Source: Bdellovibrio bacteriovorus str. Tiberius
Lineage (GTDB): Bacteria > Bdellovibrionota > Bdellovibrionia > Bdellovibrionales > Bdellovibrionaceae
Assembly (NCBI RefSeq): GCF_000317895.1
Contig: NC_019567.1
Span: 1 to 64,000, forward strand
DNA length: 64,000 nt
Direction: 5' to 3'
A program made the translations under genes and the position numbers. The notes below the pieces were generated by a model. The model ran no database searches. It had not been told where the DNA came from and was given only the letters and a program-made list of their open reading frames with translations. Shown here piece after piece: positions 1,417-52,645 of this stretch (position 1 is the first letter of the stretch; every line of letters starts with the position of its first letter).

Positions 1417-1517
1417 ATGTGGACTGTGGAAAGAGTTGTGGAAGAGTTTGGGGCTTAAAATGTGGATCTGAGTTACCCCCAAAAAAGGCTCAAAAACTGC
1501 AAAGTTGTACAGAGTCT

Positions 1518-1526
1518 TTATCCACA
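1518..1526 (+). promoter_or_regulatory. Perfect consensus DnaA box
   Basis: TTATCCACA is an exact match to the high-affinity DnaA 9-mer. It lies 51 bases before the box that borders the CTA triplets, within the dnaA-dnaN gap. Confidence 0.85.
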
Positions 1527-1568
1527 AATGTTTTTTAGTGTTTACATGGACTTAGGGGATTTGTTAGG

Positions 1569-1595
1569 TTTTCCACGCCCCTACTACTACTACTA
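1569..1595 (+). promoter_or_regulatory. DnaA box plus DnaA-trio (basal unwinding element)
   Basis: TTTTCCACG (1569-1577) is followed by a GC-rich CCC spacer and then CTA repeated five times (1581-1595). Read 3' to 5' on the other strand this is GAT repeated five times, the DnaA-trio element that guides DnaA from duplex to single strand in Bacillus subtilis. The order box, GC-rich spacer, trios, AT-rich tract is the described basal unwinding system. Its role here is inferred from this match. Confidence 0.8.
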
Positions 1596-1648
1596 GATAT
1601 TTATATATATAGAATTAGATAATAAGAGCGTTCAAAAGAGGGTCTTTC

Positions 1649-2755
1649 ATGAAATTAGAGATTGATAAGCGAGATCTGTTAAGTCTTATCGGAAAAACAC
1701 AGAACATTGTTGAGAAGCGCAACACCATGCCCATCCTCATCAACGTTTTGCTGGAAGCTGATCAGAACACTTTGAAAGTTTTTGCAACCGATCTGGAAGT
1801 AAGCCTTACCGATCAGATCAAAGTTCAAGTTCACCAGGCTGGTAAAGTGGCCGTCAGTGCAAAAAGTCTTTTCGACATTGCCAAGGAACTTTCTGAAGGT
1901 CCGATCACTTTGATCAAAAAAGAAAACAACTGGCTTGAAATCAAACAAGGCAAGTACACTTCCAAAATCGTTGGTATCTCTGCTGAAGAATATCCGATCT
2001 TCCCTACTTACAATTCTCAAGCCTTCATCAAAATTCACGCTCAGGTGCTGAAAGAGATGATTGATAAAACGATTTACTCTGTTTCCACAGACGAGACTCG
2101 TTACCACCTGAACGGTGTGTTTTTTGAATTGAATCCGCAGACAGGTTTCAAAATGGTTGCGACCGATGGTCACCGTATGAGCCTGGTAAACAAACCTTCC
2201 GAGGACATCAAGGTTAACGCCACTCAAGGTGTGATCATTCCGCGCAAAGGTTTGCACGAAATCAAAAAAATTCTTGAAAGCATCGACGGCACCGTGGAAA
2301 TAGCTGTGGAAGGCTCCCAATTCGTATTGAAACATTCATCAACAATTCTGATGATTCGTTTGATCGAAGGAAAGTACCCGAATTATCAACAGTTTATTCC
2401 ACAGAAGCTTCCGCAAAAAGTGATGATCAGCCGAGATGCATTCCTGACTTCACTAAAGCGTGTGTCTTTGTTGGCGAATCAGAAATCCAAGGCGGTGTTG
2501 TTGAATCTTTCCAACGGCCGTATGGAGATTTCCTCGAACAATCCGGAACTGGGTGATGCGAAGGAAGAGATCGAAGTGGATTACATGGGCGGCGAAATCA
2601 AAATCGGTTTCAATGCAAAGTACATCACCGACATTCTGACCAGTATGAACCAGGACAAAATTGATTTCGAACTGAATGATCATCTTTCACCAGGATTGAT
2701 GAGACCTCACAACGACCAGACTTACACCTGCGTTGTGATGCCAATGAGAATCTAA
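1649..2755 (+). CDS. dnaN: DNA polymerase III beta sliding clamp
   Basis: DnaN forms the dimeric ring that tethers DNA polymerase III to DNA and is a docking site for Hda, MutS, LigA and polymerases. The 368-residue length matches the family, with three repeated clamp folds. Recognisable stretches include the TDGHRMS motif near the middle (about residues 173-179) and the conserved C-terminus ending VVMPMRI, which helps form the clamp-binding pocket. An AGAGGGT ribosome site lies just upstream of the ATG. Its stop overlaps the recF start by one base (TAATG), so the two are translationally coupled. Confidence 0.98.
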   Translation: MKLEIDKRDLLSLIGKTQNIVEKRNTMPILINVLLEADQNTLKVFATDLEVSLTDQIKVQVHQAGKVAVSAKSLFDIAKELSEGPITLIKKENNWLEIKQGKYTSKIVGISAEEYPIFPTYNSQAFIKIHAQVLKEMIDKTIYSVSTDETRYHLNGVFFELNPQTGFKMVATDGHRMSLVNKPSEDIKVNATQGVIIPRKGLHEIKKILESIDGTVEIAVEGSQFVLKHSSTILMIRLIEGKYPNYQQFIPQKLPQKVMISRDAFLTSLKRVSLLANQKSKAVLLNLSNGRMEISSNNPELGDAKEEIEVDYMGGEIKIGFNAKYITDILTSMNQDKIDFELNDHLSPGLMRPHNDQTYTCVVMPMRI

Positions 2756-44333: not shown

Positions 44334-44362
44334 TTCTTCAAATGAGGTGACTGTTGCAAGGA

Positions 44363-46471
44363 ATGCGACTGAAGCGGTTCATTTTACCGCTCCTGGTATT
44401 AGCTGGAAGCTTATACTGGTCAAGCCCCACGGGTGGCTTGAAGTTCATTCCTATTTACGAAGCGCTCACCATCAAAGCTCAGAAAAATTCTCCACCACAT
44501 ATCGCCTTTGAAGAGCTGCTTGAATCCGAGAGGCAACTTGCAGAGTGGTCAAGAATTGAAAAAGTAAAACCATTGAATCTTGCCGCAGAAAAATCCACCG
44601 CACCGCTTTTTGCGAAGCGTGTGGAGATTTCTGAAATGGTGATTCAAAAAACTCCGGAAAGATTTATCGCGGAAGCGCCAACCACAAAGACGGTGGATGC
44701 CGATCCGACGGCATGGATGAATGACCTTTCCCCGGCTCAGGCCAAGCGCCTGCAAGCCGCTCAAAGCCGCAGCGAAGTTATTGGTCAGGACTGGAGCCAG
44801 CCAACGTGGTCTGACATGGCCAAAGAGGTTTTGGAAAAATCAGGCGTGTTGACTGAAGCAACAGCATCTTCCAATCCGCGTGTGTACGTGGCGGGAGTGG
44901 ATGCATCCGGCAAAGCCAGCACCAAAATCCCTCAAGCTGAAGTGCGTATCCCGGATCGCAACAACCAGCCATCTGATGACGGCATGAATCCTTCCTATGG
45001 TCTGGTGGAAGAACAAAGACCTGCAGGCATACGCACGATCTCGGGTCCTTTGGAAATCACCGGGGGTCTTGCGGTCACCAATGAACATCATATTGAGATC
45101 CGTCGCAGTGACGAGGGTGTCTTAAAAGAACTGGGCAAGGTCAATCTTGTTCAGGGTCAGTATAATATAGATGTTGAAGACGTGACCGGATCCATCATTG
45201 CCCGTCTGGTGGATAAAGAGGGTAAAACCCTGGGGGAAGGCAGCTTCCGCTTAAACCGTGTTGCCTCGATTGCGCAAAACCGGCTGCAAGGACCGAAGAT
45301 TCGCATCGAACCACATCCTGACTTTGGCGGTATTGTCACCAGTGCTTACAATCCAAAACCGGATGATGCGGCTCCGGCGAAGACTTTGGTGACCTTTGTG
45401 AAAGGTGCCAAAGAAGTCGCTCCGAAAAAAGACGGTGCGGTGGCGATGGACAATGTGACCAAGGGATCCACGACCGTGATGCGGGCGGCAGCGCCTTCAC
45501 ACATGCAGACGGCTTCCATTGTGGTTTCAGGTCAGGAATTCAAGACGCCTTTATATCCGGCCTCGATGATTCAGGCTTTGCAGGACATTTTAAGCCAGCA
45601 AAGACAGATGTCCTTTGAGGGCGCGCCAACCATCATCTGGGGTAAAGTCAGTCTGGATGGCAAAACGCTTTCCGGAATTGATGTGGTTGTTGAGTCAGAT
45701 CAAAGCCTTGTGCCGGTTTACTTTAATCAGTTCATGCTTCCGGATCCAAGTTTGAAAGCCACCGGGGACAACGGTTTGTTTGCCTTTGTGAATGCGGAGC
45801 CAGGCTTCCATTCCCTGCTGGCAACAAGAGCCGAAGCCATTGTGGGTTATCAGAACGTGGTGGTCGAAGAAGGTTCCGTGGCTCAAGGGGATATTCAGTC
45901 CACCATGAAAAACGAATCCGTTCCGCTGCGGGTGTATGATGCCTTTGCGGGTGACGCGGTTCCGGCCACCGTGACCATGCAAAGCCTGCAGAGTGAATTC
46001 GAAGTTCAGGGTGCCACCACGGTGACGTTGCCGAATCTGAGACGTTACGGTCTGATGCGCGTTCAGCCTGAGGGCACCGACTATGTGGCGGCGAGATATG
46101 TTTACAATGACAACGACGAATACGTGCATGCGCCGGTGGTTCGCTGGTCATGGTTAAGCGCCATCAAAGGTTATCTGAAGATTGATGATCTGCCGACGGC
46201 AGGTGTGATTGTGGGCTTTGTTCCGGATGAAAACTTTGAAGTATATCTGGCAGCGTATGATTCATTCAATCCACGCCAGATTGTGTACTTCGATATGCAG
46301 GGAAAAATCCTGCAAAACGGCAAAGGCATTGCGGGCGGTGGTTTCATTCTTTACAACGTGCCTGAAGACATTCACGAAGTTGTGGTGGTGGGCGAAAGAA
46401 CGCAGAAGATCTATTCCCGCGTTCTGCCGGTGGATCCAAACACGCTGTCCGTGCTTAGTTTCCGAGAGTAA
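44363..46471 (+). CDS. Large exported protein of unknown function, carboxypeptidase-regulatory-like modules
   Basis: About 702 residues from the ATG at 44363 (a TTG at 44354 is possible). The N-terminus has a basic start and one hydrophobic segment, so it is exported or membrane-anchored. The middle and C-terminal parts are beta-rich with phrases typical of carboxypeptidase-regulatory-like folds (TIIWGKVSLDGKTLSGIDVVVE, GDNGLFAFVNAEPGFHSLLA). The N-terminal third is helical and charged. No enzyme motif was seen. Its last 17 bases overlap the end of murD on the other strand. Confidence 0.65.
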   Translation: MRLKRFILPLLVLAGSLYWSSPTGGLKFIPIYEALTIKAQKNSPPHIAFEELLESERQLAEWSRIEKVKPLNLAAEKSTAPLFAKRVEISEMVIQKTPERFIAEAPTTKTVDADPTAWMNDLSPAQAKRLQAAQSRSEVIGQDWSQPTWSDMAKEVLEKSGVLTEATASSNPRVYVAGVDASGKASTKIPQAEVRIPDRNNQPSDDGMNPSYGLVEEQRPAGIRTISGPLEITGGLAVTNEHHIEIRRSDEGVLKELGKVNLVQGQYNIDVEDVTGSIIARLVDKEGKTLGEGSFRLNRVASIAQNRLQGPKIRIEPHPDFGGIVTSAYNPKPDDAAPAKTLVTFVKGAKEVAPKKDGAVAMDNVTKGSTTVMRAAAPSHMQTASIVVSGQEFKTPLYPASMIQALQDILSQQRQMSFEGAPTIIWGKVSLDGKTLSGIDVVVESDQSLVPVYFNQFMLPDPSLKATGDNGLFAFVNAEPGFHSLLATRAEAIVGYQNVVVEEGSVAQGDIQSTMKNESVPLRVYDAFAGDAVPATVTMQSLQSEFEVQGATTVTLPNLRRYGLMRVQPEGTDYVAARYVYNDNDEYVHAPVVRWSWLSAIKGYLKIDDLPTAGVIVGFVPDENFEVYLAAYDSFNPRQIVYFDMQGKILQNGKGIAGGGFILYNVPEDIHEVVVVGERTQKIYSRVLPVDPNTLSVLSFRE

Positions 46472-47788: not shown

Positions 47789-49249
47789 TTGCCCACTTCT
47801 TTTTCAAGACCTTTTCCTGATTTTAAAATGGCGTCGCACACAGCGATCATCAGTGATTTGCATTTGTGTGAAGCTGAACCCGTGAACCTGCGCTTTCCGT
47901 TGTGGAAGAAATTCAAGACTCGTCAGTTCTTCTTTGATGACACGTTTGAAGTGTTCTTGAAGAACTGTGAAGAAAAGGCACAAGGCGCTTCCGTTGAACT
48001 TGTTCTGAACGGTGACATTTTTGATTTTGACAGCGTTCTGCGCTTACCGGATGAGCCGGTCTTTAATGTCAGCGGTCTTGAAAAGCGCCGCGGGCTTTTC
48101 CCGATTGAAGAGCGATCCCGTTTTAAAATTGAAGTGATTTTGAAGGACCATGCCGACTGGGTCCGTGCTCTGCGCGAGTTTGTACTTCGTGGCAACCGCG
48201 CGGTCTTTGTGATTGGCAATCATGATCTGGAACTGCACTTCACGGAAGTGCAGGCCGAGATCTATCGTCATCTGAACCTGCCGGAAGACAAAAAACATCA
48301 GGTTCGTTTTGTTGAATGGTTCTATATCAGCAATCAGGACACGTTGATTGAACACGGCAATCAGTACGATCCGTATTGCATGTGTGAGGATCCGATCAAT
48401 CCGTTTGTTCGTGGTTATAATTTTGTTTCATTGAAGCTGCCGTTTGGAAATCTGGCCTGTCGTTATCTGATGAATGGAATGGGTTTCTTCAACCCGCATG
48501 TGGACAGTAACTACATCATGAGTATTCCGCAGTACATTAAGTTCTTCGTGAAATACATGCTGCGTGCGCAGCCGGGACTGGTGCTGACGTGGTTCTGGGG
48601 TTCGGTGCTGACTTTGCTTCACTCGTTCTATGACCGACTGGCAGCGCCGATGAGAAATCCACTGAAGATCGAAGACCGTGTGTCGTTGATTGCGGAGAAA
48701 GCAAATGCCGAACCTCGCATGGTGCGTGAGCTGAAAGAGCTCTTTGTGGCGCCGGCGGCCAGCAATCCATTTTTGCTGGCGCGCGAACTGTGGTTGGATC
48801 GTGCGTTTATTATCTTTGTGGCTTTCTATCTGATCTTCCAGCTGATGATCTTTGTGCGGGCCATCTATGAAATCTCGTTCTTCTGGGCATTCATTCCACT
48901 GTTCTTGCTGCTGCCGTTTTTCCTATTTTACAGCAAGTCGGTGACGTCCCTCGTGTCTGGCTACAAAGAACCCGATGACCGGGTGATGGCCATGACCAGC
49001 GCAATCACCAAGGTGAATCGCATAGTTTACGGGCACACCCATCACACCCGTCATGAGATGATCGGGTCCGTCGAACACTTGAACAGTGGTTGCTGGTCGC
49101 CGGCCTTTTTGGATGTGGAATGCACCAAGCCGTTGGATCAAAAAACGTTCGTGTGGATATCGCCGGGTGAGGCCGGATCCCGTCAGGCAGAGCTTTTCAA
49201 GTTCGTTGACGGAAAGCCAGAGCTGTTAATGAACCCGGGTCGCTCTTAA
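47789..49249 (+). CDS. Metallophosphoesterase with membrane hairpin
   Basis: The 486-residue product has calcineurin-type metal motifs: SDLHL (about 23-27), NGDIFDFD, GNHDLELHF and, after a long insertion, GHTHHTRHE. Between the last two lie about 200 residues that include two strongly hydrophobic helices (AFIIFVAFYLIFQLMIFV and a second nearby), so the enzyme is membrane-anchored by a hairpin within the domain. LpxH-like enzymes share the SDLHL start, but this is much longer. Start TTG at 47789 has a GGAGG five bases upstream; an in-frame ATG at 47828 is the alternative. Confidence 0.82.
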   Translation: MPTSFSRPFPDFKMASHTAIISDLHLCEAEPVNLRFPLWKKFKTRQFFFDDTFEVFLKNCEEKAQGASVELVLNGDIFDFDSVLRLPDEPVFNVSGLEKRRGLFPIEERSRFKIEVILKDHADWVRALREFVLRGNRAVFVIGNHDLELHFTEVQAEIYRHLNLPEDKKHQVRFVEWFYISNQDTLIEHGNQYDPYCMCEDPINPFVRGYNFVSLKLPFGNLACRYLMNGMGFFNPHVDSNYIMSIPQYIKFFVKYMLRAQPGLVLTWFWGSVLTLLHSFYDRLAAPMRNPLKIEDRVSLIAEKANAEPRMVRELKELFVAPAASNPFLLARELWLDRAFIIFVAFYLIFQLMIFVRAIYEISFFWAFIPLFLLLPFFLFYSKSVTSLVSGYKEPDDRVMAMTSAITKVNRIVYGHTHHTRHEMIGSVEHLNSGCWSPAFLDVECTKPLDQKTFVWISPGEAGSRQAELFKFVDGKPELLMNPGRS

Positions 49250-49342
49250 ATTAGTGCGCCGCAAGAAGATTTCATATTGTCATTCACAGGACCCTATGCA
49301 AACCTTTTAGCTGTTCGATTAACATGGATGGAGAGGTATATC

Positions 49343-49537
49343 ATGGCAGAAGTACTTGTAGTAACAAGCAAAGTTAAAAAACTGATCAAAGAAAAAGGTC
49401 AAATGAACACATCTGCTGAGACTATTGACGTACTCAGTAAAGCCATTGAGCAACTGTGCTTGAAAGGCGTTGAATCTGCAAAAGCTGACGGTCGTAAAAC
49501 CGTAATGGCTCGCGATATCGTTATCGACCACCTTTAA
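49343..49537 (+). CDS. Bacterial histone-fold protein (HBb/Bd0055-like)
   Basis: This 64-residue protein is a single histone fold: a short helix with KVKKLIKE, a long central helix (SAETIDVLSKAIEQLCLK in part), and GRKTVMARDIVIDHL, where GRKT plus a late Asp is the same pattern seen in archaeal and eukaryotic histones. B. bacteriovorus has a stand-alone histone, Bd0055, reported as a major chromatin component that bends and coats DNA as dimers. Its sequence and position near the origin fit this gene. Start ATG at 49343 with GAGAGG upstream. It is a single-gene unit with its own terminator. The identity is strong; strain-level match is not proven. Confidence 0.93.
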   Translation: MAEVLVVTSKVKKLIKEKGQMNTSAETIDVLSKAIEQLCLKGVESAKADGRKTVMARDIVIDHL

Positions 49538-49577
49538 TTCGGTCGAACGAAAATTCGTTCAGCATTGGTTCAATTTT

Positions 49578-49617
49578 AAAACCCACGGCCCTGAAACCGT
49601 GGGTTTTGCATTTTTTA
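49578..49617 (+). terminator. Intrinsic terminator after the histone gene
   Basis: AAAACCCACGG, loop CCCTGAAA, CCGTGGGTTTT, then GCATTTTTT. It ends the short histone transcript. Confidence 0.9.
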
Positions 49618-49643
49618 GCACTGAAAATTCCCCCGGAGTTTGA

Positions 49644-52645
<3,002 letters not shown>

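Follow-up and report, generated by a model that had tools for sequence, protein, structure and literature searches.

The histone HBb in Bdellovibrio bacteriovorus str. Tiberius: a known bacterial histone, its family context and a conserved upstream element

The gene at 49343-49537 in the 64,000-nucleotide stretch of DNA analysed here (the window) is very probably hbb, encoding an abundant nucleoid-associated histone that would work as a DNA-bending, chromosome-compacting dimer and be made from its own transcription unit, a reading to which a probability of about 0.93 is given. Judged by sequence, its product is the already known HBb/Bd0055, a real bacterial histone that is striking but not new, since it is identical, letter for letter, to the protein that has been crystallised and published. 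Textbooks have held that bacteria have no histones, a view that the bacterial ones overturn; taking into account that HBb is already their founding, crystallised example, the window represents a confirmation and not a discovery. Its contribution lies in placing HBb within the strain and the family: nearly every genome of the family encodes the histone, whose DNA-contact residues are essentially invariant, and the protease neighbour is accidental. Moreover, a conserved gene-specific upstream element provides a concrete handle on the regulation of histone supply in a predator.

Identity, class and distribution of the histone

The open reading frame, as read directly from the sequence, runs from an ATG start to a TAA stop and encodes 64 residues, MAEVLVVTSK...GRKTVMARDIVIDHL (full sequence, MAEVLVVTSKVKKLIKEKGQMNTSAETIDVLSKAIEQLCLKGVESAKADGRKTVMARDIVIDHL). 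In a phmmer comparison with PDB sequences, the product shows 100% identity over 64/64 residues to 8fvx_A and 8cmp_A (E 1.7e-35), and the same 64-residue sequence is present in five PDB entries (8FVX, 8FW7, 8CMP, 9EZZ and 9F0E), the structures of the identical protein belonging to HBb/Bd0055 of Bdellovibrio bacteriovorus (PMC10627809, PMC11317129). The Pfam model PF00808 (CBFD_NFYB_HMF; CBF/NF-Y/archaeal histone) matches with 23.7 bits, above its curated cut-off of 21.4 bits. The three-helix histone fold of a handshake dimer follows from the full identity to the crystallised 8fvx_A and 8cmp_A, and a dimer of this fold has been described for the HBb crystal structure (PMC11317129). The original prediction of a single 64-residue histone fold, and its identification as Bd0055/HBb, are therefore both upheld.

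Table 1. Features in and around hbb (positions in the window)
Feature	Position	Strand	Basis
Calcineurin-like metallophosphoesterase	47789..49249	+	Pfam; upstream neighbour of hbb in 49/51 genomes
Conserved block with palindrome TGCGCCGCA (49255-49263), candidate operator	49254..49268	+	24-genome alignment; putative role
TTGTCA-N12-TATGCAAACCTTTTA, near-invariant, candidate hbb promoter core	49277..49309	+	Conservation, single copy; putative role
Shine-Dalgarno-like GGAGAGG, 6 nt 5' of ATG	49330..49336	+	Direct reading
hbb (Bd0055), single histone fold, bacterial dimer class	49343..49537	+	PDB identity 64/64 and Pfam PF00808
Intrinsic-terminator-like hairpin and T run	49577..49618 (stem-loop 49577-49608)	+	Hairpin scan and folding
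Exported or membrane-anchored astacin (M12A) protease	49644..50564	+	Pfam E 7.8e-42
NAD-dependent DNA ligase ligA, convergent neighbour	50561..52615	-	Pfam; synteny 44/51 genomes

HBb/Bd0055 of strain HD100 is the same protein (64/64) in near-identical surroundings, which include the astacin gene and ligA; the present strain differs from it in slightly different flanking DNA and in a longer genome (3,988,594 bp, a single contig), with no difference in the protein. The window begins with dnaA, dnaN, gyrB and gyrA, and a relative (3,782,950 bp) carries an identical hbb at nearly the same coordinate, 49361.

The archaeal histones HMfA, HMfB and HmvA, together with other bacterial histones, are weaker phmmer matches. 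HMfA (E 0.07) and HMfB (E 0.44) have the histone fold and the RKT...D motif in common with HBb; unlike it, they possess an alpha2 helix one turn longer and a long alpha3, and they polymerise into hypernucleosomes (PMC11317129). HLp, the face-to-face (FtF) histone of Leptospira perolatii (PDB 9QT0), is also an alpha3-truncated bacterial histone and matches HBb weakly (E 0.0034). However, HLp is a stable tetramer that wraps about 60 bp and its gene lies beside smc, whereas HBb is a dimer and its gene lies beside ligA.

Among alpha3-truncated histones, HBb falls into the 'bacterial dimer' class. Its alpha2 helix is shortened, with a 4-residue gap against HmvA in the phmmer alignment (4-5 residues being the value for bacterial dimers), and its alpha3 is very short, the chain stopping 6 residues past D58 (D58-IVIDHL); both traits have been stated for the HBb crystal structure (PMC11317129). 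By alpha3, the one trait considered in this comparison, HBb lacks the full-length helix of archaeal nucleosomal histones. The identical protein gave 14 kDa in SEC-MALS, corresponding to a dimer in solution (PMC11317129), and bacterial dimers are reported to lack R48 and N52, the residues by which the FtF profile forms tetramers (PMC11390915).

Conservation was assessed over 42 distinct family sequences. The histone-type R-K-T-xxxx-D motif of loop 2 and alpha3 (R51 K52 T53 ... D58), which had been noticed from the sequence beforehand, is invariant, as is the clamp D49-R51-D58 (42/42). The reported DNA-contact residues S9, K10, K12, T23, S24, K52, T53 and R57 are found in all 42, T8 in 41 and A25 in 36, and the alpha1 lysines K10, K12 and K13 are present throughout, with K16 in 41. 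At the level of genomes, 65/66 family members have a histone match, 63 of them with a close HBb orthologue and two with only a longer second type, and the sole genome with no match is 67% complete. In the phylum, 263/291 sampled genomes match at E 0.001 when all histone types are counted, which exceeds the 67% published for Bd0055 homologues (PMC10627809), although methods and thresholds differ.

The longer type is also encoded in the present genome, where a second, bacterial-dimer-like histone fold at 3142860-3143030 (reverse strand) lies at the C-terminus of a ~169-residue protein, the gene occupying 1483-1992 (reverse strand) within the locus extracted around 3142860. The N-terminus of this protein carries CSSC, CSVSTC, CSVPC and HLPGARH, Pfam gave no match for it above the cut-off, and it reads as the ZZ-histone type described in PMC11390915 and as Bd3044. 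Bd3044, from the same species and encoded elsewhere in the genome, is about 49% identical to HBb over the histone fold; unlike HBb, it carries an additional Cys/His zinc-finger-like domain at its N-terminus, is expressed at a low level and is patchily distributed, and within the genus too this second type is patchy.

Proposed mode of action and competing readings

Identity, gene anatomy, conservation and synteny were obtained in the present analysis, and the literature on the identical protein supplies the dimer, the structures, the DNA contacts, the bending, the abundance and the failed deletion. We infer that these published properties extend to the present strain and that HBb acts in vivo mainly by bending DNA. 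Thus, two 64-residue chains would pair through their antiparallel alpha2 helices into a histone-fold dimer, which would hold DNA of any sequence by its backbone on the minor-groove side. One chain would supply K12, T23, S24 and A25 to this contact and the other chain K52, T53 and R57, with T8, S9 and K10 making a further contact. The dimer would then bend and compact the chromosome in the manner of HU/IHF, with no nucleosome wrapping. The protein is proposed to come from a short transcription unit of its own, to be produced chiefly while the predator grows within its prey, and to be carried over into attack-phase cells. Several published observations bear on this scheme: residues contacting the backbone at the minor groove have been reported (PMC11317129), growth-phase expression of hbb is high in published data, and HBb ranks first in abundance within the nucleoid fraction (PMC10627809). 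High expression had been anticipated from the sequence, and HBb indeed ranks 12th among 2,125 attack-phase proteins (PMC10627809). Two laboratories obtained no hbb deletion, and on the basis of these failures HBb is apparently essential.

The in vivo binding mode is disputed. Bending and coating had been given in the original prediction as a single known mode; each of them has been published, but as two competing models. Bending by dimers, as with HU/IHF, is the model of PMC11317129 and PMC11390915, whereas Hocher et al. read the crystal packing as end-on binding, with a sheath of dimers round straight DNA (PMC10627809). That HBb acts mainly by coating straight DNA in this way accords with structure 8FW7 as interpreted in PMC10627809 and with the very high abundance of the protein; however, two further co-crystals, which show a second DNA interface, point to bending, as do in-solution and simulation data, and the lattice arrangement is not the same across crystals, so that a predominant sheath is considered unlikely. 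Bending is the favoured model, since it is what several crystal forms, solution assays and simulations all indicate. Far less probable, and largely refuted, is a role for HBb as a gene-specific histone-fold transcription factor of the CBF/NF-Y type instead of a chromatin packer: the PF00808 model does cover CBF/NF-Y subunits, but binding with no sequence preference has been published, and DAP-seq finds HBb across the whole genome with no motif.

Adjacency to exported proteases had also been put forward. One exported astacin-type protease does lie next to hbb, but the upstream neighbour is a calcineurin-like phosphoesterase, and the neighbourhood loses its significance when relatives are compared, the astacin gene being present between hbb and ligA in only 3/51 other family genomes. 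A functional coupling of HBb to this protease, for instance through secretion into prey or action on prey DNA, would draw on the fact that the two genes adjoin in the window, and is rejected on the synteny; in addition, hbb has its own terminator, HBb has no signal peptide, and published imaging showed no secretion of HBb into prey (PMC10627809), leaving such a coupling a negligible probability.

Conserved gene order around hbb

The order retained in the family is murD(-), metallophosphoesterase(+), hbb(+), ligA(-), gatC and gatA, with gatC and gatA usually next after ligA in the 51 other family genomes. The conserved convergence of hbb and ligA may be plain synteny. In several other genomes a gap of 0.4-2.2 kb with no astacin match separates hbb from ligA at the same spot, which looks like an insertion hot spot. 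From its occurrence in the synteny, the astacin gene is therefore an incidental, lineage-specific insertion outside the histone system. The middle part of the phosphoesterase is rich in hydrophobic, membrane-like segments. Further upstream, a 705-residue protein at 44354-46471, which has a signal-like segment at its N-terminus and is unmatched in Pfam, is a neighbour in much of the family, its identity being lower outside the genus.

Upstream element and limits of the transcription unit

A block of ~56 bp just 5' of hbb (49254-49309) is conserved far above silent codon sites. Over 24 genus genomes, mean majority identity reaches 0.968 at 49289-49309 (GGACCCTATGCAAACCTTTTA), where 15/21 columns are invariant, with 0.911 at 49269-49282 and 0.886 at 49254-49268; for comparison, the mean over hbb third codon positions is 0.744, and the best run of 21 successive third positions reaches 0.825. 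A degenerate TTTGTCA-N11..13-TATGNAA also precedes hbb in numerous genera elsewhere in the family. This conservation suggests that the block is probably the promoter or regulatory site of hbb itself.

The core (TATGCAAACC) exists as a single genomic copy even when 3 mismatches are allowed. A genome-wide regulon was rejected, as strict patterns match at hbb alone and the loose form at one further place, the rate of the control (2 genomic occurrences against 3), and across the genome the palindromic half occurs no more often than its reversed control. For the FliA attack-phase consensus (TTAAG-N16-CCGATA, from PMC3627812), the closest site is mismatched at 4 of 11 positions, and no sigma-70 promoter was reported upstream of hbb by a promoter scanner, the best match being 8 of 12. 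An element that is not of FliA type is consistent with the growth-phase expression of hbb. A small upstream frame, ATG CAA ACC TTT TAG (49296-49310), was also discarded, because its stop is not retained in relatives. It is tentatively proposed, at somewhat less than even odds, that a dedicated histone-specific element (palindrome TGCGSCGCA plus TTGTCA-N12-TATGCAAACCTTTTA) could be read by some regulator or sigma factor, by HBb or by another nucleoid protein, and could set the timing of histone production in the predatory cycle or restrict its amount. No discussion of the element was found in the text consulted from the HBb papers, PMC10627809 included.

The ribosome-site sequence GGATGGAGAG is retained in nearly all of the 24 aligned genus genomes. 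Beyond the hbb stop, a 12-pair hairpin is followed by a T run, the folding of this 3' region gives z = -4.3 against shuffles, and most relatives also show a hairpin and T run there. With the open reading frame, GGAGAGG, the hairpin with its T run and the fold score all present, the earlier observation of a histone frame flanked by a ribosome site and a terminator of its own is confirmed. An Rfam search of the window returned zero matches. Between the hbb stop codon and the terminator, an extra small palindrome, GAACGAAAATTCGTTC, lies at 49545-49560; of the genomes compared, just the three closest show it.
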